A stretch of 64,000 nt of DNA from Neolewinella agarilytica (GTDB lineage: Bacteria; Bacteroidota; Bacteroidia; Chitinophagales; Saprospiraceae), in contig NZ_FOFB01000023.1 of NCBI RefSeq assembly GCF_900110645.1, positions 1 to 64,000 of the forward strand, in the 5' to 3' direction. Positions 2,964 through 63,124 of this stretch are shown one piece after another. A model generated the notes under the pieces. That model searched no databases, was not told where the DNA came from, and saw only the letters and a list, made by a program, of their open reading frames with translations. The translations under genes were made by a program, and so were the position numbers. The first letter of the stretch is position 1, and each line of letters starts with the position of its first letter.

Positions 2964-3374
2964 GGTAAAGGATTTGCGGGGTTAATGCCGGCACGGGAAG
3001 CAATAGTTGCAAGGATAGCTTTATTTTAAAGCTAAGGTGGTTTTGGGGCGCGGACGCAGGTGCAATGGCCCTTGTTGGCGCAACGCGCCAGTCCCCAAAG
3101 GGGAAGTTAATAGAGCCAGAGATCGCTAAGCCGTCGGCCTGATTTCCGGGTTACGCGGGCTAATCTGACGGCTGGTTGGAGAAACGGACTCTCAAAGGAA
3201 TTCATACCTCCGCTCCGCTTCGAACTGAATACCTTCGAGGTCCTGAACTACTGGTTTACAGTCTAAGGACCTCGAAGGTGTTGGCCCGTAGCCGTAGGCG
3301 TAGTTGCCAACTCCTTTGAGGGTCCGGCTGTGTGGGGGCTAATGCCTTTTTGGCGTTCGCCAGGGTTACCCCCC
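2964..3374. repeat. Nested palindromic intergenic element
   Basis: A 411-bp gap with no credible ORF. It holds one GGGCGCGGACGCAGGTGCAA copy (3045-3065) and a nested set of inverted repeats. The outer arms are GGACTCTCAAAGGAATT (3186-3202) against AACTCCTTTGAGGGTCC (3309-3325), differing at two positions. The inner arms are a perfect 14-bp pair, ACCTTCGAGGTCCT (3231-3244) and AGGACCTCGAAGGT (3266-3279). A further AGCCGTC/GACGGCT pair lies at 3129-3173. There is no T-tract after the stems, so this is a repeat-type element rather than an ordinary terminator. Confidence 0.75.
3045..3065 (+). repeat. R1 dispersed repeat, copy 1
   Basis: Exact match to the R1 consensus GGGCGCGGACGCAGGTGCAA with one extra leading G. 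Read on the minus strand it sits upstream of the NADAR gene start. R1 is the name used here for the most abundant short repeat in the window. Confidence 0.85.
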
Positions 3375-5759
3375 CTACCGCAAAAACACAATTTTCCCCA
3401 CCGCTGCCTGCGGGTCATTCAGCCCGAAGCGCCCGTTCGTGCTGGCCAGCACGAGGTAAACGCCGCTGGTTACCCGCCGGCCGGTATAGTCGGTACCCGA
3501 CCAGACGAACTGTCCGCCGGTAGCGGTTCCTTCGGCGACGAGCTTGCCGGACAGGTCCGTGATCTTTACCCGGGCATCACGCGCCAGGCCGTTGATGGCA
3601 ATCGGGCTCTGCTCACCCGGTTCCACCGGGTTGGGGAAAATGGTAAGCTCGTTTTTAAAGGTTCGCCGGTTAGCTTCCGTGGCTTCCGCCCGGTAGCTGA
3701 TGATGCCCAGCTCCGTACCGAAGTAGACTACTCCGGTGGTGGGGTGGATGGCGATATCCCGAACGATGTTGTCCAGTAATGGGCTGTTTCCCTGGTCGAA
3801 GAAAAGGAGTTGATCCTCTCCGTCATCAGAGAGCAGGTAAGCGCCGCCGCTCGTGCCGATCCATTTGCGGTTGCCGCCGTCTACGGTAATGGAGCGAATT
3901 TCCTCTGTTTCCAGCAGGAAACCACCGAAGTCATCAGCTTCCACAATGGGCAGTCTTCCGGGGCAGATACCAGTGTCAAAGGCGGAGGCTCCGCATTCGA
4001 AGAGTACGATTCCCTGGGAGGTGCCAACCCAGACGTTTCCGTCCAGGTCTACGGCGATACTGCGGACGTTGTTGGTCGGCAGGTTACTGTTGTTGGCGGT
4101 GATGGTCCGGCAGCGGTCATCAGTGGGGTCCATGGGCGTGCCCATGGGGTCGAGCACGGTCAGGCCGCCGCCTACGCTGGTGGCGTGGACCGTCCAGATG
4201 TACCCCTGGGGATCAATCTCAATGGCCAGCGCGTCATTGACGGTACAGCCGCCGGCGAGGGCGGCCCATTCTCCTTCGGGGCTGCGGACGCTGATGAAGT
4301 TTCCTTCGGAGGCTTTGCTGTTCGCCAGGTAGGTGAAGCCCGCCTGATCCGTAACGGCTCCGGCAACCCGAACCCTGCCCGGCCCGGCGCCATCACTGAG
4401 CTGAAGACTGCTGTTGGTCTCATCAAAGAGCTCACCTTCTTCTGTTTCCTCATCAAAGGATATTGCCCCTTCAAAGAAGGAAGAAAACCAGTAGCGTTGG
4501 TTGACCTCATCGTAGTGAACGTCCACAATTTCGGCTACGTCATCGTCTCCCTGTACTTCTCCGTTCCGGCCCTTGAAGACATCGTTGTTGTTGCGGTTGA
4601 AGCTGACCCAGTCTCCGTCTTTGAAGCGGTAAACGCCGCCGAAAGAAAAATTAGGGCTGAAGTTTTCATCCAGTACGCCGGGAGCCACCCAAAGCGAGGT
4701 GCCATCGTGCAGGAGGCGGTAGTTCGTATCGTCCAGCGGGCCGTTGTACTCAATTTCATTGCAGTCTCCATCGTCGATTCCTTCAAGGTAGCGGATTCGC
4801 GGAGTTGACTTGTCTTCAGCAAACCAGAACCGGCCCTGATCATCCTCAATGGCATAGTTACTTCTGATGATGCACTGATTGAAAACCCGCCGCTGTTGCC
4901 CTTCCTCGGTTAGCATGATGAGCTGCCGGCTGGAGCAGCCGTCGTCCTGGCATTGGTAGCCCGCCAGTAGGTAGGTAGGCCCAACGCTGAGGTACTGCAG
5001 TCGCCAGGGCCGCTCATCGTTGGTGTCAAAGAAAAGAGCGGCCGTATCTGCCTGCAATCGATAAACATCTTTTTCAATGCCGAAGTAAAGCTCGTCCTTG
5101 TAAATGTTGATCGCGGTAGAGGTATAATCTTCGGGGAAACCATTGGCTGCCCCTAGTAGCTCCCAGTTGCCAAAGTCGTTGAGGTTCGTCCCCAGGCGGG
5201 GAGCCCGGTAAATCCCTTCTTCCGTTGCGGCGTAGAGCAGGCCTTCGTGCAGCGCAGCACCATCTACTCTCACGCCGGTGAAGGTGGTGAAGAGGAAGGT
5301 CTCGTCGTCAAGACTTAGCGCTGAAACCCCAAAGCCTGCGGCGAGGTAAACAATGTTCTCGCCCTCGTCGAAGTGCAGATCGTAGATGGTTTTATCTCCG
5401 CTGAAATTAAAGTTGTCAATCTGCCGGAGGGTAGTGAAGCGCCCGTTACGGAGCAGATCGATGACGCTGCTTTCATAAACGATGATGAGGGTTTCCGTAG
5501 GCGGATGATAGCGCAGCAACCTGATCCTTGCTTCGGCCAGACCATCTTCACGGGCCAGACGACTGATGCTCAAATCTTCCTTGTCCAGGTAAAAGATGGC
5601 CTTGCCCGTGGTATAAATAATGGATTCGGGGCTTTCCGTTACGTAGGTGCCAAAACGATAAGATTGCAGCGTCCGCCATTCCCCAAGGCTATCGACCTGA
5701 GCGGTCAATCCGGTAATGCTGAGAAACAGAAGAAGGAAGAAAAGGACTCTTAAGGGCAT
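3375..5759 (-). CDS. PorZ-like T9SS surface protein (beta-propeller, C-terminal sorting domain)
   Basis: A 794-residue exported protein from the ATG at 5759. The reading frame extends further upstream, but this start puts a clean signal peptide (LLLFLSITGLTAQ) first. The N-terminal region (GEWRTLQSY, then IIYTTGKAIFYLDKEDLSISRL) resembles the N-terminal propeller of PorZ, the T9SS attachment-complex protein that delivers anionic LPS to the sortase. The middle carries many two-component-regulator-type propeller blades (for example DGNVWVGTSQGIVLF and NRKWIGTSGGAYLLS). The C-terminus has an FPNP-started Ig-like sorting domain ending in GKIVFLR, also expected of PorZ. A generic T9SS-secreted propeller is the alternative. 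Confidence 0.75.
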   Translation of the reverse strand: MPLRVLFFLLLFLSITGLTAQVDSLGEWRTLQSYRFGTYVTESPESIIYTTGKAIFYLDKEDLSISRLAREDGLAEARIRLLRYHPPTETLIIVYESSVIDLLRNGRFTTLRQIDNFNFSGDKTIYDLHFDEGENIVYLAAGFGVSALSLDDETFLFTTFTGVRVDGAALHEGLLYAATEEGIYRAPRLGTNLNDFGNWELLGAANGFPEDYTSTAINIYKDELYFGIEKDVYRLQADTAALFFDTNDERPWRLQYLSVGPTYLLAGYQCQDDGCSSRQLIMLTEEGQQRRVFNQCIIRSNYAIEDDQGRFWFAEDKSTPRIRYLEGIDDGDCNEIEYNGPLDDTNYRLLHDGTSLWVAPGVLDENFSPNFSFGGVYRFKDGDWVSFNRNNNDVFKGRNGEVQGDDDVAEIVDVHYDEVNQRYWFSSFFEGAISFDEETEEGELFDETNSSLQLSDGAGPGRVRVAGAVTDQAGFTYLANSKASEGNFISVRSPEGEWAALAGGCTVNDALAIEIDPQGYIWTVHATSVGGGLTVLDPMGTPMDPTDDRCRTITANNSNLPTNNVRSIAVDLDGNVWVGTSQGIVLFECGASAFDTGICPGRLPIVEADDFGGFLLETEEIRSITVDGGNRKWIGTSGGAYLLSDDGEDQLLFFDQGNSPLLDNIVRDIAIHPTTGVVYFGTELGIISYRAEATEANRRTFKNELTIFPNPVEPGEQSPIAINGLARDARVKITDLSGKLVAEGTATGGQFVWSGTDYTGRRVTSGVYLVLASTNGRFGLNDPQAAVGKIVFLR

Positions 5760-5811
5760 GCTGTAAAGGTAAGCTGGCGGGCGGGAGGTATTGTGTCGGG
5801 GGGGGGCAATC

Positions 5812-5952
5812 AGGGCAATCGCAAGCTCCACACAAGGACGCTCGCAGGTGGCTCCGCGACGCTACGAGGTCCCTTGAGCCAGGCTAAGCGGACCTCGTAG
5901 CGTCCTGAAAGGACCTTCGAGCGTCCGCGTTATCCGAGCTTGCGATTGCCCT
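5812..5952. repeat. Nested palindrome with 17-bp and 15-bp perfect arms
   Basis: The outer arms are AGGGCAATCGCAAGCTC (5812-5828) and its exact inverse at 5936-5952. Inside is a second perfect pair, GACGCTACGAGGTCC (5858-5872) and its inverse (5890-5904), followed by GGACCTTCGAGCGTCC. The whole 141-bp unit could fold into one cruciform-like structure. It lies between the divergent PorZ-like and endonuclease V genes. The shape is MITE-like, with no ORF, and the inner GACCTCG/GCGTCC words recur at 3231, 24008, 57148 and 59766. Confidence 0.85.
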
Positions 5953-6606: not shown

Positions 6607-6658
6607 AGTGGGGCCGTACCAAAGGGGGGTAAGGCTCCTTGCTCCTGAAAACTCCCCC

Positions 6659-6680
6659 TTGCACCCGCGCGCCGTCGCCC
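6659..6680 (-). repeat. R1 dispersed repeat, copy 2 (variant)
   Basis: Minus-orientation copy of the variant whose centre reads GGCGACGGCGCGC rather than GGCGCGGACGC. The same variant recurs at 62233-62254 in the opposite orientation, so R1 has at least two subtypes. It lies in the convergent gap between endonuclease V and RNase G. Confidence 0.75.
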
Positions 6681-10163: not shown

Positions 10164-10328
10164 ATTAATTTTTATTGTTCGTGGGGACTCGTTTTACAAA
10201 AGCGACGCAAATATCGCATTTTATCTGGAAGGTACCACTTAAAATGCATTATTTCTTTACAATCAAGTAGTTATGGGTGGTCAGGATGACGCTAAAATGA
10301 CGGTTAGCGGCCTGTTTTGGGGACTTGC

Positions 10329-10539
10329 GGCGCGGACGCAGGTGCGAGGAGTGTTAATAGGAGCAGTAGAGACGCTGTACGTCGAGTCGGACAAGGGAGC
10401 GCAACGACTTTGGGCGTGTTGTACCTGCTCCCGCGGGAAAGAACCACTCCCGGAGCCTTCGGCCCCGTTCGGGTTCAACGCATAGCAATCCGGCCCCCTT
10501 TGCTCCCTTTTCCTTTCCCTTGCACCTGCGTCCGCGCCC
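10329..10539. repeat. R1 inverted pair (copies 3 and 4) between divergent HU and yicC
   Basis: Copy 3 (10329-10345, plus) and copy 4 (10520-10539, minus, exact consensus) face each other 174 bp apart. They fill most of the 420-bp gap 10164-10583, which has no gene. The interior contains CCCGGAGCC...CCGTTCGGGTTC and CTTTGCTCCCTT words that also occur inside the 19312-19703 pair. This suggests one element with terminal inverted repeats and a partly shared core. Confidence 0.8.
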
Positions 10540-14262: not shown

Positions 14263-14613
14263 GGGCGCGCTCACCGCAGGTGCAGGCGCGCGCGAGAGGA
14301 GCAATGATTGGTGGTTGTGTAGCGAAGATGGCTTCGTAATAGTGGGGCAGCAGGGGGGCAAACCAGATTGTCGCTTTTTCGGCACTCTAGCCCCCAATTG
14401 GGGGAAGTTCCCTTTCATAGGAAATCACCGAGGCTGACTCTGTTTCAAAAAAGATGTGCTCTCAAATGGCGTTGTTGCATGAATCGGCCTCAATTGAGCT
14501 GATTTCATAAAGATGGGCTAGCCCCATATCTTTGCAAAGCAAAGGAGTAAAAGCAAGGAAAGACAAATACTGCTCTTTGCTCAAAACCATTCTTTGCACC
14601 CGCGTCCGCGCCC
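14263..14613. repeat. R1 inverted pair (copies 5 and 6) in a convergent gap
   Basis: Copy 5 (14263-14284, plus, degenerate centre) begins two bases after the upstream stop codon. Copy 6 (14594-14613, minus, 19 of 20 bases) ends just before the next gene's stop. The 359-bp gap 14262-14620 has no gene. It also contains CCCCCAATTGGGGG, a perfect short palindrome near 14391. Confidence 0.75.
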
Positions 14614-19311: not shown

Positions 19312-19703
19312 GGGCGCGCACGCAGGTGCAAAGGGAAGGTAAAGAGCAGCGTTTGACCGGTCGACGCTGCTTCCAGCAGCGAGCGGCGGCGAGTGCCCTC
19401 CGGGCACGAGTTGACTGACGCACTTACAGCTGTCAGCCAGGCAAAAGAACCCATAGCAAACGGTTTTGGCTTCATTCCAATGGATGAATACTGTGTTACC
19501 CGGTTGAGGACCCTGGTTGCTGAGCGAAGTCGAAGTAATGGTCCGAACGCGAACGGGGCAGTAGGCTCCCGGAGCGTGTAGCAGCGGCAGCCTCATGGTG
19601 TTACAGGCATTATACGGTCAAAGTCGCTTTGCTCCCTTGCCCGATTCGGACCGGAGTACCTCAACCGAGCCCTTACCCCTCCCTTGCACCAGCGGCCGCG
19701 CCC
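19312..19703. repeat. R1 inverted pair (copies 7 and 8) reaching into the BCCT gene
   Basis: Copy 7 (19312-19331, plus, 19 of 20 bases) and copy 8 (19684-19703, minus, 18 of 20) bracket the 425-bp gap 19193-19617 plus the last 86 bases of the BCCT gene. The interior shares CTTTGCTCCCTT and CCGTTCG-type words with the 10329-10539 pair. No ORF in the gap is credible. Confidence 0.8.
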
Positions 19704-21165
19704 GCCAACTCCGCACCACCAGCACCAACAAACTCCCTCCCGCCAGCAAGAACAAGAACATCGCCGGAAACCCTCCCAGCGTATTCACCAGCCGGATGCC
19801 ATCAATGCCGGCAAAAGCGACCATCACCCAGGCCGTAGTGCCAATGATGCCGCCCCACAACAACTTAACGAAAAGGGGAGCCTCCTGACGCTCCGGCGTG
19901 ATGCCCTCCACGCAAAGTGCACTCATGGCCGATATGTTGGAATCGGCAGCCGTAACGTAAGACAGGAAAACCAGCAAAAGAAACAGTCCGGGCGTTAGCT
20001 CCGCCAGCGGCAAGGTGTCCAGCAAAACGTAGATCACGGCCTCCGGACCACCCTCCGTCAGGGCAGCGGAGAGCTGCCCGCTTTCATCCGTTACCAGGCC
20101 GATGGCGGCGAAGCAGACCATCCAGAAAGCACCGAAAAGAGAAGTGTACAACAGGTTAACCCGGATAAACGCCCGGACGGTATAGCCCCTGCCCAGCCGA
20201 CCAAGAAACAAGGCCGTCACGGGCGCCCAGGCATACCAGCCCGCCCAGTAGAAACTCGTCCACGCCCGCCCCCAGGCGGCGTCAATGCCCGGGTCCAGCC
20301 CCAGATTGCGGGGGACAAAGGTGGACACATACTCCCCTGCAGCAGAAAAACTAAGCGCCAATGCTTCCAGCGTCGGTCCCGTAAAGAACACGAATACGGC
20401 CAGCAACATAAACCCCACCACGTTGATGCCGCTCAACAGCCTGATCCCTCGTTGAAGCCCGCTGGCCGCTGACACGCTGAAGGCAATGACGATGGCCGCA
20501 ATGATGAGCCCCAGCACCAGCGGCGTGCGCTCCGAAGCTAAGCCACCCGACAAGGACAGCGTACCCGCCCCCAAGCTCCCCGCCATGCCCGCCACCAGGG
20601 CGAAAAGACAAATTACGTCAACGGCTGCACCCGCCTTTTTGTGAATACGCTCCCCAAGCAAAGGCTCCAGTAGCGAACTGATGGCAAAGGGCTGCCGCCG
20701 GTTGTAAAAGGCCAGGGCAAACAACAAACCACCCAGCGTGTACATCCCGTAGGGCGTAAAGGTCCAGTGCAGATACATGATGCTCATGGCGAAAACGTCG
20801 GGCTCGGCCAGCCCCGCCTCCGGCGGGCCGCTCACGTGATAGATCGGCTCCGCCGTTCCCCAGAACAGAATACCCGTGGCAATGGTCGTACAGACGGTTA
20901 TCGCAAACCACCGCGGACGGCTCAACAAGGGCGTTGCTGTGTCGCCGCCAATTTTCACCCTGCCCAGTGGACTGATATATGCCGCAACCACAATCAGTAA
21001 GCAGGCGAAAGTCGAGCCATTAAACAGCCAGTCGAAGTGCAGCATGACCCAGTCTGACCAGCCCCGCATGGTGGTCACTAAACCTTCCGGATCCTTAATC
21101 CCCCAAATGGCGCAGGCGAGAAGTGGCAATAGGGGAGGGAGGAGGACGGTGTATCGGATGCGCAT
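19618..21165 (-). CDS. BCCT family transporter (betaine/choline/carnitine type)
   Basis: A 515-residue inner-membrane transporter with about twelve membrane segments. BCCT proteins import betaine, choline, carnitine or DMSP, driven by Na+ or H+, often for osmoprotection. The family motif region appears as FWGTAEPIYHVSGPP (TM3-4) and AWTSFYWAGWYAWAPVTALFLGRLGRGYTVRAFI (TM8, with the aromatic box expected to bind trimethylammonium). The last 28 residues (from RARPLVQGRG) are low-complexity, basic and encoded by R1 repeat copy 8, so the original C-terminus has probably been replaced. Substrate not assignable. Confidence 0.92.
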   Translation of the reverse strand: MRIRYTVLLPPLLPLLACAIWGIKDPEGLVTTMRGWSDWVMLHFDWLFNGSTFACLLIVVAAYISPLGRVKIGGDTATPLLSRPRWFAITVCTTIATGILFWGTAEPIYHVSGPPEAGLAEPDVFAMSIMYLHWTFTPYGMYTLGGLLFALAFYNRRQPFAISSLLEPLLGERIHKKAGAAVDVICLFALVAGMAGSLGAGTLSLSGGLASERTPLVLGLIIAAIVIAFSVSAASGLQRGIRLLSGINVVGFMLLAVFVFFTGPTLEALALSFSAAGEYVSTFVPRNLGLDPGIDAAWGRAWTSFYWAGWYAWAPVTALFLGRLGRGYTVRAFIRVNLLYTSLFGAFWMVCFAAIGLVTDESGQLSAALTEGGPEAVIYVLLDTLPLAELTPGLFLLLVFLSYVTAADSNISAMSALCVEGITPERQEAPLFVKLLWGGIIGTTAWVMVAFAGIDGIRLVNTLGGFPAMFLFLLAGGSLLVLVVRSWRARPLVQGRGKGSVEVLRSESGKGAKRL

Positions 21166-21305
21166 GGGGTGGAAGGTACGCTACTGGCCGAAGTTACCTG
21201 CGGTAACGAGCATTCACAATGACTACACGGCTCAGCTCGACGCCGGAGGCGTCATCGTCCAGGACCTAAGTCGCATATCCAAAATCAAGAATCGCCAATC
21301 AAGAA

Positions 21306-23903
21306 TCACCGCACCACCACCCGTTGCCCCAACCCAGTCACCCGGCCATCCGTATCCAGCGGCTGCACGAAGTACAGCCCCGGAGCCAGCCCTTCCAGCG
21401 ATAATTGCGTCTGCTGGCCGGTAGCCACTACCCGTCGCATTTCCCGCCCGCCGATGTCGTACAAGCGGTAACCACCCGCTTTGCCCTCCACAGTCGTGGA
21501 ACCACTGGCGGGGTTAGGATAGATGCGGGGAGCAGCGCCTCTTGCCAGCGGCTCATCAATGGACACGAGCTGCTCCACCTGGAAATCCCAGGCACCCCGG
21601 CCGTAGGTGCCGAAGCGGGCGATGTTACGATCTTCGAGGAATTCCACCGAGTAGTAGCGCATGGTGGGGGCGTACTGACCGGCCAGGTCAAACCACCGTT
21701 CTTCGCTGACAACATAAACGAAGGGTCCTGCCTCCGTAGCCGCAAAAATCAGACTCTCGGTAGCGTTGGCCGTTAACCCATGAACGACCGTTGGCGGCAG
21801 GCCGTCGCTGGCCGGGAAGAAGTTCTCCCCGCCGTCTTCTGATCGCCAGACGGGCGGATTACTGTAGCCCGAGCCGCCCAGCCATACGGTCTCGGCTTCC
21901 GTTTTGGAAGCATGGATCGCCTGCCCGTAGAGGTACCAGCCCGACGGTAAAAAGTTGAGGGTTTCTGACCAGCTTTCGCCCCGGTCGTCGGAGGCAAAGA
22001 AACGACCCTGATCCGTGGCTACGTAGAAGCGGTCCGGGTTGAGAGGAGAATAGCTCATGGCAGAGATCTGACCGGCGGCAGCGTCTTTGAAGTCAAGGGG
22101 AAGGTCACGGCCCGTCATGGCTCCGTAGTGAACGTCATCCTCGTCCCGGTTCAGGTCAACTTCCACCAGGAAGGAGCCCGCGCGGGCGGTATCCGAACTG
22201 CCGCCAGCGATGTAGAGTTTCACCTGCCCGTCTAAGCGTGGAGGAGACATCATCGGCGTAATCCAGATGAATTCATCCGGGCTTTCAATTTCGTAGCTGC
22301 TCCAGCCCAGGCCATTCTCTTCGTCCAGTACGTCGTAAAAACCGTAGACGAAGCCACCGGGGTAGGCGGTAAAGAAAACGTTCCCCCCTTCGGCAAAGTC
22401 GAGGTGACCATAATCCCCACTAAACCATTGATAGCCGCCCAGCACGTTGCGTCGGCTGCTGTCGTTCTCGTCCAGTATCTGGAAGCCCTGATCCTGAGAG
22501 CCGGCATAAATGATGTCCCGGTCGCCGGGGTTGGTGCGCACGTCGTAGTACTGAGCCACGTTGAGGCCTTCCTGAGCGACGCTATACCACATGCTGTCGG
22601 CTGGGTTGAGCAGGTTGAGGCCACCGTGGTTACTCACCAGCATTTGAGATTCGCCGTCGGGGTCCGTTATTTCGGTCAGGCGCATGATGTCAGCGTGGAG
22701 GTAGCGGACGGGGTCGGCGTAGTAGTCGTTCCAGCGGTTGGGGTAGGCGAAGGTTTCGCCTCCGTCGCGGGAGACCCAGAGCTCAACGGCGCCCCAGGCG
22801 ACGAAGTCGGGGTCGCTGGGGCGGACGTAGATGGATTGGTAGCGCCAGGGGACTTTGTCCAGGCGGGGCATCTCCCGCCAGTCCAGGCCGTCGTTATCGC
22901 TGCGGAAGAGCTGGTCGTAGGCCTGAAGGAAGATTCTCAGGCTGTCCGTTCCGGGCTGTCTGGCCGCGGCTATTCTGGAACGGTAGCTGCCGGTTCTTTC
23001 TACCGGGACAGAACTGATGAGGCGAAAGCTTGCGCTGCTCCGGTCCAACTCGTAAAGGTTGACGCCTGCATTATCGCCCGTTCGTTTCATGGCGGCGAAG
23101 AGACGATCCGTTCCGGGTGGGTTATACAGGTGGGTAATGGTCTGGTTCCCCTCCACGGTGGCCAGCGGCGGGCCGGGCAGTTGATCGTAGCTGATGCCAC
23201 CATCTACAGAATGGAATATTTCATAATTGCCCCGGAGAATTTGTAGGGTCGTGAAGACCTCGTCGTCGATAACCTGTGGAGAGAAGAAGTTGTCCATCGC
23301 GGCTTCATCGATGACGTTGCCGTTTTCCCGGACGGTGGCGAATTCCCAGCTTTTCCCGTCATCGGGGGAATACATCGGCCGACTGTCGGAGAAGGCCAGC
23401 AGGTGGCGGCCGGCATCAACGGGCACCAGCCCCAGGAACTCCCGGTCGAAATAAATATCGTGGTTGACGAGGCGGTAAGCTTCGCCGGTATAATCCATTT
23501 CCCAAATGGAACCACCGGCGGACATCAAAAACAAACGATTAGCATCCGTGGGGTCCTGCACGACGTCGAAGACGCTGCCGGCGGTGTACTTACTGCCGCG
23601 CTCGAACCACTCCCCGGTCAACAGGCCATCCGCAAAGGACTCGCTGCTCTTTTCCGTGAAACGCCCCTGCCGTTTGCGGTGGCGGGCCATGGCGTTATGG
23701 CTTTCCAGTTTCCGCCAATCTGTACCGGGGGCTGCGCGGTGAAGGCTCTCCAGCCAGCGTTCGTGGCGGTTTTCCTTGTCGGCCCCTTCATGTTCCCCTT
23801 CTACCCGAATATCAATAGGGGCGCGTTGGGGTAATTTTTCCTGGGTAGAGTTGCAAGCGGTTAATAAACCAACTAACAGAAAGGGCAAAATCAAAAATTT
23901 CAT
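21306..23903 (-). CDS. Sortilin/VPS10-like propeller protein with lipobox and T9SS tail
   Basis: An 865-residue exported protein. The N-terminus is a lipoprotein-type signal (LPFLLVGLLTAC-NST). The body is built of sialidase/VPS10-like blades with repeated Asp-box-like turns (SPDDGKSWEFATV, SRDGGETFAYPNRW, SDDRGESWSETL, SEDGGENFFPAS), typical of secreted glycan- or protein-binding propellers. The last about 75 residues are a type A T9SS sorting domain: IYPNPASGSTTVEG ... YRLYDIGGREMRRV ... LAPGLYFVQ ... RVVVR. Having both a lipobox and a T9SS tail is unusual. It stands alone, and an R1 copy lies 60 bp upstream. Confidence 0.85.
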   Translation of the reverse strand: MKFLILPFLLVGLLTACNSTQEKLPQRAPIDIRVEGEHEGADKENRHERWLESLHRAAPGTDWRKLESHNAMARHRKRQGRFTEKSSESFADGLLTGEWFERGSKYTAGSVFDVVQDPTDANRLFLMSAGGSIWEMDYTGEAYRLVNHDIYFDREFLGLVPVDAGRHLLAFSDSRPMYSPDDGKSWEFATVRENGNVIDEAAMDNFFSPQVIDDEVFTTLQILRGNYEIFHSVDGGISYDQLPGPPLATVEGNQTITHLYNPPGTDRLFAAMKRTGDNAGVNLYELDRSSASFRLISSVPVERTGSYRSRIAAARQPGTDSLRIFLQAYDQLFRSDNDGLDWREMPRLDKVPWRYQSIYVRPSDPDFVAWGAVELWVSRDGGETFAYPNRWNDYYADPVRYLHADIMRLTEITDPDGESQMLVSNHGGLNLLNPADSMWYSVAQEGLNVAQYYDVRTNPGDRDIIYAGSQDQGFQILDENDSSRRNVLGGYQWFSGDYGHLDFAEGGNVFFTAYPGGFVYGFYDVLDEENGLGWSSYEIESPDEFIWITPMMSPPRLDGQVKLYIAGGSSDTARAGSFLVEVDLNRDEDDVHYGAMTGRDLPLDFKDAAAGQISAMSYSPLNPDRFYVATDQGRFFASDDRGESWSETLNFLPSGWYLYGQAIHASKTEAETVWLGGSGYSNPPVWRSEDGGENFFPASDGLPPTVVHGLTANATESLIFAATEAGPFVYVVSEERWFDLAGQYAPTMRYYSVEFLEDRNIARFGTYGRGAWDFQVEQLVSIDEPLARGAAPRIYPNPASGSTTVEGKAGGYRLYDIGGREMRRVVATGQQTQLSLEGLAPGLYFVQPLDTDGRVTGLGQRVVVR

Positions 23904-43646: not shown

Positions 43647-43655
43647 GGGAAAATT

Positions 43656-43792: not shown

Positions 43793-43822
43793 CGCATATC
43801 AAAAATGCCGGAGGCAATTTTG

Positions 43823-43894: not shown

Positions 43895-44069
43895 GGGAAG
43901 GATATGTGGCGTGAAATGAATCAACGGACATACACTAAAACACGCAACGTTTTGCGCTTAAGCGACCGCAAAGATAGTACGCCTGCGGATATTGTCAAAG
44001 GTGTAAGTGAAAATTATCTTCGGATTATGAAGCAGAGCTTCAGGAAAGGCCGTAAAAAGGGCAGTTTTC

Positions 44070-44765: not shown

Positions 44766-44883
44766 ACTAGCTGAATAAACGGGATTGTATGCCGGATAGT
44801 TGCGTCGTCGGTCGTGAAGCAGCAAACGTTGGTCGATTGCTGAAGGGCAAAACGCTGATTCCCTTGCTTTTGTAAAACCACCT

Positions 44884-44902
44884 CTGCACCTGCGTCCGCG
44901 CC
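44884..44902 (-). repeat. R1 dispersed repeat, copy 15
   Basis: CTGCACCTGCGTCCGCGCC, minus orientation. With copy 14 it brackets the tRNA pair and the coiled-coil gene, 1.5 kb in all. Confidence 0.75.
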
Positions 44903-44949
44903 ATCTGATTGGGCACTCAAAGGATCGCCTAAACCACTGACACTACCTT

Positions 44950-48108: not shown

Positions 48109-48338
48109 ATTTAGTTTTTCGGAGGGTAGAGTAAAGGGCGCACAAACAATGGCCTAAAGATAAATAACAATGCTGGCGCTTGGAGGGTTGCGCAAAGATC
48201 GTGCCAAGAGAGGAAGGTTGGGCGGTTTTGTCGGGAAAGAACCTTAATTGCAGGAAGGGATGTCAGGAGGGCGGGAACCGCAGGTGCCGTTATTGTGGAA
48301 CGAGCAGTGTTGTCAAACAGGCAGATTCTCTGCGCTAC

Positions 48339-48803
48339 TCACGGCCGCCCTTCGTATTCCTCCTTGATGTAAGAGAGCAGGTCTTCGATCTCTCCGTCGC
48401 TCAGATCCGGGAAGTTGGACATGGCGCCGGGGTACTTCTCCGAGACCTCCATCGCCCGTGGGTGGCCGCTGCTGGCCAGTAGCTGGCTGTTCCGGATCCA
48501 GGCGTAGAGGTCTTCACGGGGGTAGCCCGCCCAGCGGGCCTCAACGCCGCCGAGGGCCGGGCCGGTGGCCTTGTCCTTCATGTTTTTGTTGTGGCAGGCG
48601 GCACAGCCATTTTTCCGCCAGACAATCTTGCCCGCGGAAAGAGGTGGGGGAGTGGCGGCCTGCCCGCTAACTTTCTCTGCACCGGCGGCAGCGCCCCCGG
48701 ATGCGTTTGGTAAGCTTAAAGTGTAGCCGGCGACCATCGCCAAAGTAAAGAGAATAGCCAGAATGCTGGTCTGTAATAATAGGATGGAGGATCTCAGGTG
48801 CAT
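48339..48803 (-). CDS. Membrane-anchored c-type cytochrome
   Basis: A 154-residue protein from the ATG at 48803. The N-terminal hydrophobic helix (LQTSILAILFTLAMVAGYTL) probably stays as an anchor. After an Ala/Gly/Pro linker comes a single cytochrome c domain with the heme-attachment motif CAACH (KNGCAACHNK). The distal Met ligand is probably in PGAMSNFPDLSDGEIEDLLSYI, which is class I cytochrome architecture. It lies 135 bp downstream of the soluble-type sugar dehydrogenase on the same strand, so it is a plausible electron acceptor for it. Pairing inferred from context. Confidence 0.88.
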   Translation of the reverse strand: MHLRSSILLLQTSILAILFTLAMVAGYTLSLPNASGGAAAGAEKVSGQAATPPPLSAGKIVWRKNGCAACHNKNMKDKATGPALGGVEARWAGYPREDLYAWIRNSQLLASSGHPRAMEVSEKYPGAMSNFPDLSDGEIEDLLSYIKEEYEGRP

Positions 48804-51138: not shown

Positions 51139-51711
51139 ATGATGATTGGAACGAAAAAGATTATTAACTCACCACCTGATAATACACCTGCCCGCATGAC
51201 CGAGACGGAACTCGTAGAGGCCTGCCGCCGGCAGGATCGTCGCGCCCAGAAGGAATTGTACGACCGGTATAGCCGTGCCATGTATACAGCTTGTTACCGG
51301 ATTTGCGGAGATTTCGATTTGGCCAACGATGCACTGCAGGAGGGTTTTCTCAAAGTGTTTCAGAAGCTGGACACTTTTCGGGGAGACAGTACGGTGGGCG
51401 CCTGGATGAAGGTCGTCATTGTACGCACAGCACTCAATAAACTGCGGCGGCAAAAGCCAACGCAGGAGCTGCCACTCAATTATGCTGATCAGGAAGTGGA
51501 TTGGGGAACAACGGCACTGGACATTGAATATTTAGAAAAAGCAATCAATAAACTACCGGATGGTTATCGGGCAGTCTTCGTACTGATCGAAATCGAAGGC
51601 TATAAGCACCAGGAAGTGGCAGATATGCTTAACTTCAGTGTGGGAACCAGTAAAAGCCAACTCTTTTACGCCAAGAAAAAATTGCGGGAATACCTGCGCC
51701 ATTACGTATGA
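51139..51711 (+). CDS. ECF RNA polymerase sigma factor
   Basis: A sigma-70 family factor of 190 residues, or 171 from the ATG at 51196 (MTETELVEACRRQD), which fits the family start better; the upstream 19 residues may be leader. Region 2 is clear: KELYDRYSRAMYTACYRICGDFDLANDALQEGFLKVFQKLDTFRGD ... GAWMKVVIVRTALNKLRR. Region 4 follows: INKLPDGYRAVFVLIEIEGYKHQEVADMLNFSVGTSKSQLFYAKKKLREYL. Regions 1.1 and 3 are absent, as expected for ECF type. Its stop overlaps the next gene's start (ATGA), so it is translationally coupled to the probable anti-sigma factor. Confidence 0.95.
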   Translation: MMIGTKKIINSPPDNTPARMTETELVEACRRQDRRAQKELYDRYSRAMYTACYRICGDFDLANDALQEGFLKVFQKLDTFRGDSTVGAWMKVVIVRTALNKLRRQKPTQELPLNYADQEVDWGTTALDIEYLEKAINKLPDGYRAVFVLIEIEGYKHQEVADMLNFSVGTSKSQLFYAKKKLREYLRHYV

Positions 51712-52292
51712 AGGAGAAGAACAAAAAAACCTTGCGGGATGCCCTGGAGCAGTTGCCGGAATACGGCGCGGACGCAGGTGCATGGAAAGCTATTGAAGCA
51801 GGGTTGACGCCCGCTTTGAGCGAACGACTGCCCAGCTATCAGCCGCCGGCTGAGGTCTGGAACGGCCTCAACAAAGCGTTAAATTCACCCGCGCCAGTGG
51901 TGAGTATCCGGCGCAGAAAATGGGCCCGGATTGGCGGCATTGCCGCCAGTGTGTTGGTCATCGTAGCCCTGGGAGTCGGCCTCTGGCCGGAGGCCATTAA
52001 TGCTGGCCCCCGCATCAGTATCTCCTACGCACAGGAGGTTGCGCCAGCCACCAGCTCTCATGACTGGAATGCTGATGAAGAGAGCTTTAACCACGTTATC
52101 GCCCAGATCGAGGAACGTAATGAGCCCACCCTCAATACCCTGAATATGGAGCTGGCCGAACTCACGGCCGCTAAGGAAGAAATGAAGGCGATGCTGGTTG
52201 CATATGGCGAAGACCCTTCCGTCATCCGCCAGCTTGCTGAAATCGAGCGGGACCGCTCGGATATTTACCGGCGCATCATCGTTGAACTGTAA
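51708..52292 (+). CDS. Probable anti-sigma factor (single-pass membrane protein)
   Basis: A 194-residue protein coupled to the sigma gene by a 4-base ATGA overlap. The N-terminal 70 residues are cytosolic and helical (KKTLRDALEQLPEYGADAGAWKAIEAGL, then LPSYQPPAEVWNGLNKAL), a likely sigma-binding part. There is one membrane helix (IGGIAASVLVIVALGVGLW, about 75-93) and a periplasmic, partly coiled-coil sensor half (LNTLNMELAELTAAKEEMKAMLVAYGED). No zinc HxxxCxxC motif is present, so it is not a classic ZAS protein. Residues about 19-25 (YGADAGA) are encoded by an R1 repeat copy. Function inferred from position and topology. Confidence 0.75.
   Translation: MKEKNKKTLRDALEQLPEYGADAGAWKAIEAGLTPALSERLPSYQPPAEVWNGLNKALNSPAPVVSIRRRKWARIGGIAASVLVIVALGVGLWPEAINAGPRISISYAQEVAPATSSHDWNADEESFNHVIAQIEERNEPTLNTLNMELAELTAAKEEMKAMLVAYGEDPSVIRQLAEIERDRSDIYRRIIVEL
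51765..51782 (+). repeat. R1 copy 16 inside the anti-sigma gene
   Basis: 18 of 20 bases of the consensus, read in frame as Gly-Ala-Asp-Ala-Gly-Ala within the anti-sigma N-terminus. A repeat inside a helical sigma-binding region is unusual. Confidence 0.75.
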
Positions 52293-52345: not shown

Positions 52346-53275
52346 ATGCGTTCAAGACTTTTCCCTCTCCTTGCTCTCTTAATCCTCCTCTGCACCTGCG
52401 CCAGCGCCCAAACGGACAATGCCCTGCGCGAAGTCGTCACGAAGACGATTGAAGACACTTACATCTACAAACCAGGGAAAGAACTGGCCGTAGAAGGGGA
52501 GAAAGCAGAAATCTTCGTGGAGACCTGGGATAAGCAAAAGATTCACGTCAAGATTGTCATGACCGCCCGCCACCCGGAGTTGGAACGTGCCAGGAAAGAC
52601 CTGGAAAACCTTAATTACATCGCTGAGGTGGCCGGGCAAAAAATCTTCCTGAAGAACAAGCGCATTGATGAAACGCATAAGCCAAAGAGCGAACTGACCG
52701 TTCACTACTACATCACGCTACCCGAGGAATGTCCCGTTTACCTTAAGAGTCACTTCGGCGGAGCGACGATCTCTAACCTCCGCAACCAACTGCGAATCAA
52801 CGGCGAGTTCTCCGCCATCAACATAGACAACGTTCAGGGCATCCTCGACATTCGCAGTCGCTTCGGAGACATCACCGGAGAGCGAATCGATGGTAACGTA
52901 GTGATTAATTCCCGCCGCTCAGATATTAACCTGTTCGACGTCGGGGGAACCTTTAATATTAACGCTCAATACGGAGAGGTCAAACTGAGCCCCAACGTCC
53001 GGATGCGGGATCTGCAGATCAACGCCGACAAAAGCGACGTCTACATCTACGAGCCCATCGGGGGCGAAGGGATGAACTACGAACTCACCCTCACCAACGG
53101 AGAAATTAAACTCCCCGACGGGCGCAAAGTCATTGAACTGCAACGGACGCCGGAAATTCGCCGCTTCGCCATCCAGCCTTCTGCGGAACGAATGGGAACC
53201 ATTACGGCCAGCGTTACCTTTGGCGATCTTTACCTGGCTAAGCAGACAAAAGAGTTGGAGCGTAAGCGGTTCTGA
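52346..53275 (+). CDS. DUF4097-like beta-helix protein of the sigma operon
   Basis: A 309-residue exported protein with signal FPLLALLILLCTCASAQ; a lipobox reading (LLCTC) is possible but weaker. The body is a run of short strand-turn repeats typical of DUF4097/adhesin-like right-handed beta helices: SHFGGATISNLRNQLRINGEFSAINIDNVQGILDIRSRFGDITGERIDGNVVINSRRSDINLFDVGG ... INAQYGEVKLSPNVRMRDLQINADKSDVYIYEP. DUF4097 proteins often accompany anti-sigma factors and may act as envelope sensors or targets. It is 53 bp after the anti-sigma gene, so third gene of the operon. Its signal peptide is partly encoded by R1 copy 17. Confidence 0.8.
   Translation: MRSRLFPLLALLILLCTCASAQTDNALREVVTKTIEDTYIYKPGKELAVEGEKAEIFVETWDKQKIHVKIVMTARHPELERARKDLENLNYIAEVAGQKIFLKNKRIDETHKPKSELTVHYYITLPEECPVYLKSHFGGATISNLRNQLRINGEFSAINIDNVQGILDIRSRFGDITGERIDGNVVINSRRSDINLFDVGGTFNINAQYGEVKLSPNVRMRDLQINADKSDVYIYEPIGGEGMNYELTLTNGEIKLPDGRKVIELQRTPEIRRFAIQPSAERMGTITASVTFGDLYLAKQTKELERKRF
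52390..52410 (-). repeat. R1 copy 17 inside a signal-peptide region
   Basis: Minus-orientation copy coding for C-T-C-A-S-A-Q, the end of the signal peptide of the 52346 gene. With copy 16 it brackets most of the anti-sigma gene. Confidence 0.7.
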
Positions 53276-53805: not shown

Positions 53806-53990
53806 GATGGATCGTGTGTGGTCGGAGCCACGGCAGGATTTCTCCTGCGGCAGCGGGATGTGTGAAGGGTGCTCCCGAAGGGAATCCCTTCAACAAGGAC
53901 GAAGGGGCAAGATGAAGGTTGCATGTTCCCGAGAAATCTGCAACCCGCAACCTGCAACCCACAACTTGCAACCTGCAACCCACCCACACC

Positions 53991-54840: not shown

Positions 54841-56853
54841 TCATTCTTTTCCCCGGGTTTTCAACGGATAATCAATAACGGGAGAAATCCCCGCAGGTAA
54901 GGAACCTTCTTCAGATACTGGCGCCTTTTGCGGCACCCGTTTAGGCCCAAAAAGATCCAGCAAGGTCTTTGGTTTTCGCTCCTCCTCCCAGCGGAAGCCC
55001 TCCAGCCGGAAAGCACCGTGATCCGGTATATCTCCCATAGGTTGCATCTTGCCGCTCGGCTGACTCAGGAAGCGAATCTTCCGCACCGCCTGGTTTTTGA
55101 AGTGCAGCACCATCGCACTACAGGCCGTTTTATTCACCCCGACGTAGGCCCCGGCCTCATCGAGAATGTAATAGATGGCCTCGGCGTTGCCGTTCACTTC
55201 GGTACGGGACAGGGCGGTGCTGTCAAAGAAGGCCTCGATGACCTTACCCTTCACCTGATTGAAAAAGATAAAATCAGAGGTGGTAATCACCAGGGCATTA
55301 CGGATCAGGCGGACTTTATCCGGGGCTTCGTCTTTGAAGAATATCTGTACGGTGTCTCCCGTCAGCTGACTGGTGTCTTGCCACAGCACAGGATCCTGAT
55401 AAAGGGTGAGGACGCTGTCGATAGTGTTGAAACCAAGCGAGTCGCAGACGGCCTGCAGGTCGCTCTTCAGAATCCGCACGTCCCGGTAAGCGGAGAGATA
55501 GCGTATGGAATCCATCGTGATCGTCGTATCTGCTTCTACAATTGGCGTAACGATCAGGGAGTCACCCAGGAAGGTAGAGTCGATGCGGACCGTTCGCTCA
55601 GTGATGGTGGTGTCGAACACCTCAGACTGTACGGAGATCAGCGTATCCGCCGCCATCCACATGGTGTCCTGATCGAGCAGGGCCGTTAGCAGCGGGCGGC
55701 CGCGCGGGCCGCCGGTAGCGTTCAGGTAGCCGGTGTCTTCGTTATAACGGGCCTCGGTGGCCTCGATGGAGATGTTGGCCGAGGTGTCTTGCCAGAAGAC
55801 GTTGCCGCTAGCCTTGCTAAAGCCCGTTTCGGGGTCGGAGTTCAAGCGGTCCGCAACGATGATCATTGGCGGAGCGGAGACCCGGGGGCGCCCCCCGGCC
55901 ACGGCGTAGGTTTCCCGCTTGATGTCGTAGTTGATGGTGTCTCCGGTAACCGTTTGGCTGGAATCGCGGACGCTTGCGTTACCCTCCAGCCGGTAGCGGT
56001 CCTGCCGGCGGAAATAATTGATCCGATCGGCCGTAGCGCGTTGGAATTCGCCTTCGGCGACGTAAGCATCGCCCTCCAGGATGTAGACTTCCTGTCCGCC
56101 GAAGTAGCGGATCGTATCAGCTGCTGCCAGCCGTTCGCCACTTTTATACTGGGCGTTCTGGCTGAAGACAGCCTCGTCGAGCTGCACGTCATAATAACCG
56201 GATTCGCAGTAGATCCGGTGGGTATCTGTACGAATTACCGTAGGGCCGAGGAAGTAAACGCGATCGGCGTTCAGGTCATATTTCAGGGTGTCGGCCCGCA
56301 TCTCAAAGCGGTCGTCAATGACGACGACGCTGTCGCGGAAGTAGACCAGTTGCTCATTAGCATAGTAGTAGCCGTGGGTGGAGTTGAGCTCGGTTCCCTT
56401 GTTCACGATGCGGCCGCCCGTGTGGTAAGTTGCCAGTTTGGTCGCCAGGTTGTAGGCCAGCCGGTTGGTGTACAGCTCCGTTTCGCCGCGTTGCAGCACG
56501 ACCTTACCGATCAGGTCGGCCAGCCGCGTCTCGGCGTTGTAGTCGAGCTCATCGGCGAAAGCTGCCAGGCTGTCCCCCTGCTGAATGATCACATTGTCGT
56601 AGGCATTCACTTGCACACTTTCAAAAAGCAGTACGCTGTCGCCATACATGAAAATACTATCCTGACTCAGCTCGACCTCGCCCACGAGAAGCTGCGTACT
56701 GCCCCGGTTAAGCATGCGCAGCTCGTTGGCCTTATCGATGTTCACCACTTCCTTCACGGTGCTATCCTGTGCGGGCACGGTAGTCTGGGCGCGGACGCAG
56801 GTGCCGAGCAGAACTAAAAGAGCAATGATGTACCAGGCGGTCAGCTTTTGCAT
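54841..56853 (-). CDS. OstA/LptA-like domain protein
   Basis: A 670-residue exported protein with signal (TAWYIIALLVLLGTCVRAQ), partly coded by R1 copy 18. The body repeats an OstA (LptA/LptD N-domain) beta-jellyroll pattern: strands such as ADELDYNAETRLADLIGKVVLQRGETELYTNRLAYNLATKLATYHTGGRIV, then ADRINYFRRQDRYRLEGNASVRD and EATEARYNEDTGYLNATGG. LptA forms the periplasmic LPS bridge. At this length (LptA is about 180 residues) it is more like a Bacteroidota multi-domain relative. It ends in a proline-rich tail. Overall it is probably an envelope lipid-transport or outer-membrane biogenesis protein. Confidence 0.78.
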   Translation of the reverse strand: MQKLTAWYIIALLVLLGTCVRAQTTVPAQDSTVKEVVNIDKANELRMLNRGSTQLLVGEVELSQDSIFMYGDSVLLFESVQVNAYDNVIIQQGDSLAAFADELDYNAETRLADLIGKVVLQRGETELYTNRLAYNLATKLATYHTGGRIVNKGTELNSTHGYYYANEQLVYFRDSVVVIDDRFEMRADTLKYDLNADRVYFLGPTVIRTDTHRIYCESGYYDVQLDEAVFSQNAQYKSGERLAAADTIRYFGGQEVYILEGDAYVAEGEFQRATADRINYFRRQDRYRLEGNASVRDSSQTVTGDTINYDIKRETYAVAGGRPRVSAPPMIIVADRLNSDPETGFSKASGNVFWQDTSANISIEATEARYNEDTGYLNATGGPRGRPLLTALLDQDTMWMAADTLISVQSEVFDTTITERTVRIDSTFLGDSLIVTPIVEADTTITMDSIRYLSAYRDVRILKSDLQAVCDSLGFNTIDSVLTLYQDPVLWQDTSQLTGDTVQIFFKDEAPDKVRLIRNALVITTSDFIFFNQVKGKVIEAFFDSTALSRTEVNGNAEAIYYILDEAGAYVGVNKTACSAMVLHFKNQAVRKIRFLSQPSGKMQPMGDIPDHGAFRLEGFRWEEERKPKTLLDLFGPKRVPQKAPVSEEGSLPAGISPVIDYPLKTRGKE
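56787..56804 (+). repeat. R1 copy 18 inside the OstA-like signal peptide
   Basis: 18 of 20 consensus bases. On the coding (minus) strand it encodes G-T-C-V-R-A-Q at the signal-peptide end. Confidence 0.8.
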
Positions 56854-57159: not shown

Positions 57160-57214
57160 TCGAAGCGCTATCAGGCGTTAGCAGCTCCCAAACCCGGCTC
57201 TCCTAAACCTCCCT

Positions 57215-57234
57215 TTGCACCCGCGGATGCGCCC
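57215..57234 (-). repeat. R1 dispersed repeat, copy 19
   Basis: TTGCACCCGCGGATGCGCCC, ending three bases before the CvpA stop codon at 57237. With copy 18 it brackets the intergenic palindrome. Confidence 0.75.
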
Positions 57235-58990: not shown

Positions 58991-59163
58991 AGCGCTGGGC
59001 GCTTTTTTAAGACGCAGCAGTCGCTTCGCACTTTTAGGGCTTCGGTAAAGACTTGCCGGAGCCCTAAAAGGGTAGCGTCTAAAAACCGCGAAGCGGTGTC
59101 TAAAAGAAAGAGGAACGATAGCGATCTCTTTTGCCTGAAAAAGTCGCGTCAGCGACGCCTAAA
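58990..59163 (+). repeat. R3 3'-end repeat, copy 4
   Basis: Immediately behind the dehydrogenase: GCGCTGGGCGC-TTTTTT, AAGACGCAGCAGTCGC, TTTTAGGGCTTCGG ... GCCGGAGCCCTAAAA, then GCGTCTAAAAACCGCGAAGC, GGTGTCTAAAAGAAAGAG. The last part is close to the reverse complement of 24903-24958. A larger inverted repeat (TTAGGGCTTCGG/CCGGAGCCCTAA) can also fold. It probably overlaps the end of the convergent deaminase gene. Confidence 0.7.
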
Positions 59164-62225: not shown

Positions 62226-62232
62226 AGGGACG

Positions 62233-62254
62233 GGGCGACGGCGCGCAGGTGCAA
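62233..62254 (+). repeat. R1 dispersed repeat, copy 20 (variant)
   Basis: Same variant centre as copy 2 at 6659. Upstream of the transporter gene. Confidence 0.75.
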
Positions 62255-62336
62255 AGGAAGGTTTTTTGAGGGCAGTGCAATGGAAACTTACCGTTTTACT
62301 ACCTTGCTGTCGTACTGTTATCACCTCCCTCTTATC

Positions 62337-63047
62337 ATGATTGCTAATAAAATTACCCCGCCCGCTTCTTCTCGCCTTGGTTGGATTCTCAGGGCCCTGC
62401 TGGAGATTGTCATTATCGTCTTCGGTATTCTACTGTCTTTATGGATCAGCAATGGTTTTCAGAATACGCAGGACCGGCAACGTGCAGAGCGTTACATGGT
62501 CCGACTGGATAACAACCTGAAAAAAGACGAAGTACAACTGACCTTTGAACTGGCCCGCCGGGAAGAACAGCTGGGGCAGGCTAAAAAAATGCTGGCGGCC
62601 GTAAGCACTCCGTGGTCTTCTGATAAAGTTAGCACAATGGTAGAAGGGTTTCAGTCTTTATTATGGACGACGAGGTTCAATTCTAATAATGCCACCTTCC
62701 GCAGCCTGGAAAGCTCGGGAGATTTGAGACTGATCGAACAGGACTCCCTCGTTAATCAAATCGTGAAACTGTACCACAACCAATATGAAGCTCTTCGTGA
62801 AAATAACGAAGATGTAACTAAGTACCGGGATAATTTCTTGTTGCCCTACACGATCAGGAACATAAGTTTTCGGCAATCTTTTAACCCTACGGGTAGCCCT
62901 GTAACCTTCACGGCAAAGCAGTTGGATGAACTATACAACCACCTTGTTTATGAGACGATCACCTTACAATCTACGGTGGAATCTTATCGCCTCACGATGG
63001 AAAAGGTGAAGGAGCTGCGGGAATCACTTCAGCATGCAATGCGCTAG
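62337..63047 (+). CDS. DUF6090-like membrane protein
   Basis: A 236-residue protein with an N-terminal membrane anchor (WILRALLEIVIIVFGILLSLWISNGFQ) and a long helical region outside it. The anchor sequence with the E-I-V-I-I-V-F-G-I-L-L-S motif, followed by RQRAERYMVRLDNNLKKDEVQL and FNSNNATFRSLESSGDLRLIEQDSLVNQIVKLYHNQY, matches Bacteroidota proteins annotated DUF6090, often found in multiple copies. Function unknown. It lies alone, bracketed by R1 copies 20 and 21. The start is the ATG at 62337. Confidence 0.8.
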   Translation: MIANKITPPASSRLGWILRALLEIVIIVFGILLSLWISNGFQNTQDRQRAERYMVRLDNNLKKDEVQLTFELARREEQLGQAKKMLAAVSTPWSSDKVSTMVEGFQSLLWTTRFNSNNATFRSLESSGDLRLIEQDSLVNQIVKLYHNQYEALRENNEDVTKYRDNFLLPYTIRNISFRQSFNPTGSPVTFTAKQLDELYNHLVYETITLQSTVESYRLTMEKVKELRESLQHAMR

Positions 63048-63104
63048 GCGGCAGGCAGGGCTACCGCTGGCGGAGGAGGAAACCTTTGCTTTTTTTACCC
63101 ATTA

Positions 63105-63124
63105 TTGCACCTGCGTTTGCGCCC
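63105..63124 (-). repeat. R1 dispersed repeat, copy 21
   Basis: TTGCACCTGCGTTTGCGCCC, upstream of the acyl-CoA dehydrogenase gene, minus orientation. Confidence 0.75.

Follow-up and report, generated by a model that had tools for sequence, protein, structure and literature searches.

Along the first 64,000 nucleotides of contig NZ_FOFB01000023.1 of Neolewinella agarilytica (assembly GCF_900110645.1), the stretch called here the window, lies a dispersed directional repeat that an earlier note had listed as 21 copies of a 20-mer in nearly strict +/- alternation. Strand is taken here from the reading TTGCACC..GCGCCC, and the '+' of that note is '-' in this text. At up to three mismatches, 16 window copies match the 20-mer (0.01 expected by chance), and a gapped profile recovers all 21 listed copies, five of them starting one base off (3046, 10328, 23966, 38127, 51764), while adding two strong copies at 956 (36.1 bits) and 48677 (29.7 bits) and two weak sites at 1153 (12.5 bits) and 48279 (14.1 bits). 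On the minus strand, copies occupy 3046-3086 (28.3 bits; listed earlier as 3045+), 10328-10368 (29.8 bits), 14263-14306 (25.7 bits; a spacing variant, GGTGAGCGC, directly past a stop codon), 19312-19352 (40.9 bits), 23966-24006 (37.2 bits), 33294-33334 (32.5 bits), 38127-38167 (28.6 bits), 43350-43390 (34.5 bits), 51764-51804 (33.9 bits; antisense in gene 51708-52292 and reading GADAGA), 56787-56827 (32.4 bits; in an apparent signal-peptide coding region, LLGTCVRAQ) and 62231-62275 (37.5 bits; a longer hairpin-loop variant), and the weak site at 48270-48310 (14.1 bits) is possibly due to chance. On the plus strand, they occupy 935-975 (36.1 bits; unlisted earlier, sense inside gene 929-2296, which encodes a type IX secretion system plug-domain protein), 6638-6680 (33.4 bits; listed as 6659-), 10499-10539 (40.2 bits), 14573-14613 (39.9 bits), 19663-19703 (31.5 bits; at the predicted 3' end of gene 19618-21165), 24047-24087 (39.6 bits), 33347-33387 (33.8 bits), 44863-44903 (37.2 bits), 48656-48696 (29.7 bits; unlisted earlier), 52369-52409 (42.9 bits; in an apparent signal-peptide coding region, LLCTCASAQ), 57194-57234 (40.7 bits) and 63084-63124 (38.3 bits).

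Fifteen window copies could be compared with the closest relative, labeled G009 (the own genome is G000, and congeners bear labels of the type G001). Eleven are kept, two of them degenerate: those at 10328, 10499, 14573, 19312, 23966, 43350, 44863, 51764 and 62231, together with 14263, which has a weaker counterpart, and 24047, which has a degenerate form. Among the rest, the copy at 3046 has its hairpin swapped for a 16-nt palindrome, the one at 52390 is much weaker (15.8 bits), the one at 19684 lies in a rearranged region, and the one at 6659 is missing from G009 along with the stretch of about 150 bp that contains it. This last is the one difference that looks like a gain or a loss. Gene order is collinear with G009 along contigs of 8.2 and 14.6 kb, bar one complex rearrangement at 19.3-21.3 kb, which speaks against invertible or excisable segments. 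Comparison of window 19312-21308 with 848-3396 of G009 stretch L109 shows that in G009 the gap sequence, along with 91 bp from the end of the neighboring gene, is present once more on that gene's far side.

The 20-mer proved to be the core of a longer motif of about 46 bp, conserved from -22 to +24 around TTGCACCTGCG (n = 292 copies) and composed of a pyrimidine tract, AAACCTTCC, TTGCACC and a small GCG-N-CGC hairpin; after the pyrimidine tract the parts come in the order AAACCTTCC, TTGCACCTGCG and the inverted repeat. Own-genome statistics are based on 860.7 kb, or 13.8% of the genome, and those for other species on 80-300 kb each; by the simple gene model used, 76% of the sampled DNA is coding. 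Profiles were trained on the genome in which they count, hence the use of reversed controls and of other species. In the own-genome sample, the profile finds 235 matches at a 12-bit cut against 5 in reversed sequence, a density of about one per 3.7 kb. The hairpin loop measures 4 nt in 171 of these copies, 5 nt in 22, 6 nt in 20 and 3 or 8 nt in 7, and the hairpin is absent from the other 15. Strand numbers are near-equal on each of five own-genome contigs, the biggest imbalance being 24 vs 31, and the full genome (6.22 Mb) holds 433 exact cores against none for the reversed pattern.

In the sets searched, the motif is restricted to the genus. Exact cores occur in 20 of 60 genomes, namely the own genome and all congeners but G001 (19 of 20), and in none of the 39 genomes of other genera. 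A class-wide draw of 395 genomes gave four with matches: the own genome, one congener and two with a single match each. A scan of named genomes returned at least 97 stretches, with titles from Neolewinella, Lewinella and the Bacteroidia assembly Co_bin.246 (many stretches) and, among the matches listed, also one Chitinophagales and one Rhodospirillaceae assembly. Twelve genomes of other genera, sampled over 253.7 kb, give 2 profile matches vs 1 control at 12 bits. Counts of exact cores span 0 to 502 across the genus, a wider spread than that of profile density: G017, with 6 exact cores, has 19 profile matches in 80 kb (control 1), G001, with none, has 5 in 80 kb (control 0), and species with usable counts (G000, G004, G014, G019, G008) carry one copy per 2.4-4.3 kb. 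The profile of G013 drifted, and this species was left out of the dialect count described below. In its stretch C14 (L138-L147), tandem repeats of the type CGCAGGCCTCCCCAACCTCTCC..CCTGCG resemble the 5' half of the motif.

Orientation alternates in 22 of 24 neighbor pairs of the window when weak sites are counted, vs 12.5 ± 2.4 after shuffling, and none of 1000 shuffles reaches this value. The near-strict alternation and non-random order described in the earlier note, and the suspicion that the family extends further, hold genome-wide: 171 of 230 neighbors alternate in the own-genome sample (116.9 ± 7.8 shuffled), as do 62 of 86, 97 of 122 and 48 of 65 in three other species. The coefficient of variation of same-strand spacing is 0.59 in the own genome (random placement gives 0.99 ± 0.06, and none of 500 simulations comes down to the observed value), 0.43 in G014, 0.58 in G004, 0.52 in G019 and 0.53 in G008; it is 0.75, a weaker effect, in G013, whose profile drifted onto tandem repeats. 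Pooled over 1.90 Mb, 607 copies and six genomes, the ratio of observed to expected same-strand pairs climbs from 0.18 (0.5-1.5 kb) through 0.41 (2-2.5 kb) and 0.66 (2.5-3 kb) to about 1 once 3 kb is reached. Under 500 bp the ratio ranges from 0.34 to 0.92, and below 200 bp it is 0.6-0.9 because of weak matches and the G013 tandem repeats, the drifted-profile matches of G013 being included in the pooled counts, where they add same-strand pairs under 500 bp. With copies of at least 25 bits, 3 same-strand pairs are found under 500 bp vs 27.7 expected, and 9 under 2 kb vs 110.

Opposite-strand pairs behave differently, with 128 under 2 kb vs 113 expected at the same cut and 0.72-1.26 of expectation in every pooled bin from 200 bp to 15 kb. 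The departures are a 3.1-fold excess under 100 bp and 1.9-fold at 100-200 bp (41 pairs under 200 bp vs 11.4 expected at 25 bits or more) and a mild deficit at 1-2 kb (38 vs 56.5). The strands are thus not perfectly independent, and the between-strand effect is small beside the within-strand exclusion. When same-strand spacings are permuted per strand, 164.8 ± 5.5 neighbors alternate vs 171 observed, so that the genome-wide count does not call for any coupling between strands; for the window by itself, 22 alternating pairs of 24 is at the high end, a value that 22 of 1000 such permutations reach. Alternation is real but a by-product of same-strand exclusion within about 3 kb, and paired elements, as the earlier note had supposed, are not required. 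Divergent pairs outnumber convergent ones under 1 kb (102 vs 39; about 50 each expected), an excess that we attribute to pairs sharing one intergenic gap, and at 1-3 kb the numbers are 75 vs 100 (about 99.5 each expected). Simple import redundancy does not fit these counts, as it would exclude convergent or all opposite neighbors. A cause in divergent promoters or operon direction is likewise set aside, copies facing gene starts and gene ends alike.

Ninety-four of the 235 own-genome copies lie within predicted genes, 55 in sense (24, 21 and 10 in the three frames) and 39 in antisense, and their translations, read by eye, hold the register of the protein, as in the two signal peptides of the window. 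Host families recognized by eye include an ankyrin-type protein (GADAGAKD) and a BirA-like protein. The gene argH holds two copies, one sense and one antisense, and was compared in 18 of the 21 genus genomes, including the own genome (G002 and G009 gave no full match and G010 a distant match only). The protein alignment is gap-free in both 40-residue motif blocks in all 18, and nucleotide alignments contain small gaps beside the antisense copy in several species. Motif scores in argH are 21.7-37.3 bits in the eight compared species with more than 150 exact cores and at most 13.9 bits, or under the cut of 8, in G001, G006, G012 and G016. In six motif-rich species, conserved codons carry 0.45 extra synonymous codons inside the motif (20 codons) vs 1.21 outside (315). 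The two argH copies thus vary between species by substitution, with few synonymous changes. A shared promoter or terminator motif, an alternative raised in the earlier note, finds no fixed relation to gene starts or ends, since 46 of 111 copies lie in genes and 65 face starts or ends. Within the motif, TTTGCACC resembles the Bacteroidota -7 box; most window copies have no TA before it, and the promoter reading is also contradicted by copies that point at gene ends or lie inside genes. As separate observations, an 11.8-kb open frame of the own genome (C26:242993-254830; 3,946 codons) holds four motif copies in both orientations, and a motif-like stretch at C39:68089-68116, also found in G009, lies beside or inside comEC (ComEC domain match at C39:68181-69008).

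A compositional footprint surrounds the copies. Read along the motif strand, the upstream flank is richer in G than in C and the downstream flank richer in C than in G, and in the own genome the upstream-minus-downstream skew over 30-1200 bp is 0.063 vs a random standard deviation of 0.006. Intergenic DNA shows it, and so does coding DNA, sense or antisense. Flipping orientations is a weak null for a pattern with reverse-complement symmetry, and the skew is judged by random placement, gene ends and copies deep inside genes. At 150-400 bp, gene starts near a motif show -0.163 vs -0.081 for other starts, and gene ends -0.075 vs -0.150 for other ends, the opposite sense to starts. A plain gene-end gradient is insufficient as the source, as settled by 100 copies of at least 16 bits lying at least 200 bp inside a gene (G000, G004, G014 and G019). 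At fourfold sites, (G-C)/n steps by 0.136 ± 0.014 across these copies vs -0.005 ± 0.012 at 121 control points, and, taken apart, 48 sense copies step by 0.113 and 52 antisense copies by 0.158; with the sign equal in both classes, the G-richer strand on either side is the one that points its 3' end at the motif. The skew fades by about 1.2-1.5 kb and, within 150 bp, rises with motif score (0.06/0.03, 0.08/0.09 and 0.12/0.12 up/down in three score classes), and fourfold-site GC is 2-3% higher within 1 kb of all 482 copies. C-to-T deamination on resected strands would fit the G>C sign and fails on the average GC rise and on the A/T skew. Two further observations concern composition. Beyond 1.3 kb downstream the sign reverses, motif-strand skew reaching +0.034 ± 0.007 at 1.7-2.2 kb, and the positive values at 1.3-3 kb hold for isolated copies too; we leave this without explanation. 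In the own-genome sample, genes more than 3 kb from any motif have fourfold-site GC of 0.58-0.63, by gene position, vs 0.676 overall, as if they were recently acquired DNA without the motif.

The core also occurs in 114 viral stretches, most of them without the flank (mean flank score -5.7 for 115 cores vs +5.9 for 55 cores of the own-genome sample). In nineteen of the 114, either one copy scores 30 bits or more or several score 20 bits or more, and 13 of these stretches share DNA at 88% identity or more over at least 400 bp, three being pieces of one 38.7-kb contig, IMGVR_UViG_3300012037_000001 (IMG/VR; L308, L320, L303), with terminase, tape-measure, helicase and integrase genes. This contig carries eight copies over 36.7 kb on both strands, with no match in the reversed control and with same-strand copies at least 3.6 kb apart, and motif density in this temperate phage lineage is about that of the host. 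The probable host, judged by the motif only, would be Neolewinella or its kin. Relatives of the contig (L265, L275, L285, L293, L295, L300, L319, L342, L350, L361) come from several metagenomes.

A reading to which we would give about an even chance is that the repeat acts as a genus-specific signal for DNA uptake or recombination, comparable to the DNA uptake sequences (DUS) of Neisseriaceae and the uptake signal sequences (USS) of Pasteurellaceae, and is kept by molecular drive. DNA bearing the motif would have preference in uptake or processing before it recombines into the chromosome, and alleles that make or improve a motif would spread by drive through genes, gaps and resident prophages; the process behind this drive may be natural transformation. 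The strand with its 3' end facing the motif is the marked one, which would trace the footprint to recurrent recombination started at DNA ends or single strands at the motif. Taken together, the one-strand exclusion and the two-sided footprint suggest recombination tracts of 1-3 kb within which direct copies are unstable or redundant. Same-orientation neighbors might be lost as direct repeats that delete each other inside a single-stranded or resected tract of about 3 kb, or else the machinery might read orientation. It is possible, though less likely than not, that the exchange signal is read strand by strand, copies repeatedly serving as DNA ends or entry points from which 3' strands of 1-3 kb recombine; this would keep same-orientation copies at least 3 kb apart and mark neighboring synonymous sites, and a temperate phage would share the signal.

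Likeness to the known systems is broad. DUS and USS also number from hundreds to thousands, occupy both strands and genic as well as intergenic DNA, have flanking tracts beside a strict core, species dialects and close inverted pairs (PMC1939737, PMC3630211, PMC7811141), and are restricted by clade and accumulate in temperate phages (PMC1939737, PMC3630211, PMC7811141, PMC6776037), the last being described likewise for USS in temperate phages and prophages of Pasteurellaceae (PMC6776037). Here, too, one motif is over-represented on both strands; dialects are clear in G019 (consensus ATTACCCTGCACCCGCG) and slight in G004 and G014; spacing is more even than random, each strand being taken separately; copies stand in genes as well as gaps, the coding ones varying by substitution, as examined in depth in argH only; and copies accumulate in a temperate phage lineage whose host is assigned by the motif only. 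Differences lie in the Bacteroidota host, in the length of about 46 bp with a variable-loop hairpin, in the fact that the motif is known here from sequence alone, and in a same-strand exclusion of about 3 kb and a footprint of about 1.2 kb, neither of which is described for DUS or USS in the text available. The exclusion and the footprint do not follow from the known DUS/USS model.

Several points weigh against such a signal. No uptake or transformation data for the genus were found in the literature, and no receptor was identified. ComEC is present in 21 of 21 genus genomes and also matches in 10 of 14 control genomes, so that its presence is compatible and not diagnostic. Isolated copies (115) keep the skew and show little GC rise beyond 500 bp, the skew of G013 is in A/T and not G/C (51 copies, small numbers), and the low-count species G003 and G017 keep argH copies at 24-31 bits, so that score does not simply follow copy number. 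Plain import redundancy would predict exclusion of opposite copies as well, and only the mild deficit at 1-2 kb is seen. In H. influenzae, uptake is independent of orientation (PMC1939737), and by PMC7811141 23% of USS10 have another one less than 100 bp away. Indifference to orientation is a measured property of H. influenzae uptake and no part of the DUS/USS definition; the present motif departs from it in that same-strand copies exclude each other and opposite ones hardly do.

The strongest rival, which we nevertheless consider unlikely, is a signal, Chi-like or otherwise read by its orientation, to which a DNA motor or nuclease inside the cell would respond in repair or phage defence; here each orientation would serve one direction of travel, same-orientation sites within about 3 kb would be redundant and opposite ones invisible, and selection, not drive, would maintain the copies. 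Chi hotspots (RecBCD/AddAB) depend on orientation, occur about once per several kb and are tied to recombination, all features in which the motif resembles them; same-strand exclusion without a like effect between strands, near-equal strand numbers, the recombination-like footprint and the phage copies would also be accounted for. A Chi-like event is one-sided, however, whereas the footprint extends to both sides, with near symmetry within 1.2 kb; Chi sites measure 5-8 nt, against about 46 nt with a hairpin here; and strand bias is absent inside each of the five sampled own-genome contigs and the motif is genus-specific. A mark that falls, to either side of the motif, on the strand pointing its 3' end at it, and the strong exclusion of direct repeats only, up to about 3 kb, would equally suit a recurrent chromosomal break or nick site, where 3' strands recombine after resection, no uptake is involved, and same-orientation copies within the resected 3 kb or so delete the DNA between them by strand annealing. 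This is improbable, as cut sites are normally lost by conversion, leaving the spread or upkeep of the motif unexplained, and the substitutions are unlike deamination, GC rising on average and the A/T skew not following.

Regular per-strand spacing, orientation and genus restriction could also be expected of an oriented chromosome-architecture or nucleoid-protein site selected for its spacing on each strand. We regard this as quite improbable: one site per 2.4-4.3 kb, near absence from the congener G001, phage copies and a substitution footprint would all be unexpected. The readings offered by the earlier note, a MITE (miniature inverted-repeat transposable element), REPIN or transposon end, or a recombination site flanking cassettes, fare worst. 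Repetitive extragenic palindromic (REP) sequences and REPINs, with their REP-associated tyrosine transposases (RAYT), are short, hairpin-bearing and present as inverted pairs in hundreds of copies, and the motif is alike in each of these respects, including the inverted-pair excess under 200 bp; Y1_Tnp genes, moreover, occur in 20 of 21 genus genomes. Movement by a RAYT or other transposase is nonetheless hardly credible. The copies are not extragenic only; coding ones occur in all frames, keep the protein's register and vary by substitution, which is not the mark of insertion. Nor do Y1_Tnp genes, in a search that did not separate the RAYT subclass from others, track copy number, G018 having 227 exact copies and no Y1_Tnp match and G001 four matches and no exact copy. 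The data do not support reading facing pairs as element ends, or the copies as bounds of cassettes or composite elements, because beyond 200 bp opposite-strand partners lie at near-random distances. One of 15 comparable sites lacks its copy in G009 (6659) and one is altered (3046), but the coding copies compared change by substitution.

For the uptake or recombination signal, no report of such a motif in this group was found in a literature search that had most subscription papers outside its reach. A signal read strand by strand would, as far as we know, be without precedent in two respects, as an uptake-type signal in Bacteroidota and as one whose spacing depends on orientation. Riemerella columbina belongs to the same phylum. 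This species has natural competence and a reported preference for DNA of its own kind (PMC7965970). Uptake sequences have been described from two proteobacterial families, and a third, unrelated case, if true, would be an independent test of why they exist, on which debate continues between mate recognition and a by-product of receptor bias (PMC1939737). The 3-kb same-strand exclusion and the footprint supply a polarity and physical lengths for comparison with tracts of uptake, resection or recombination, and the footprint, if true, would be a sequence record of recombination sites, readable in named strains such as N. persica.

Other repeats in the window are distinct from the motif. A 56-nt inverted repeat at 24925-24980 and 59057-59112 (89% complementary, with CTTTTAGAC words) is apparently a member of another dispersed gap repeat, also seen at 6554, 24859 and 50960, and two tandem 21-nt units of CAACCTGCAACCCA type at 53941-53982 have similar sequence in many G009 contigs. 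A 45-nt inverted repeat (78% complementary, 1-nt loop) lies at 5836-5926, and an 81-nt direct repeat at 43571-43651 and 43819-43899, 99% identical, resembles two tRNA genes by eye.

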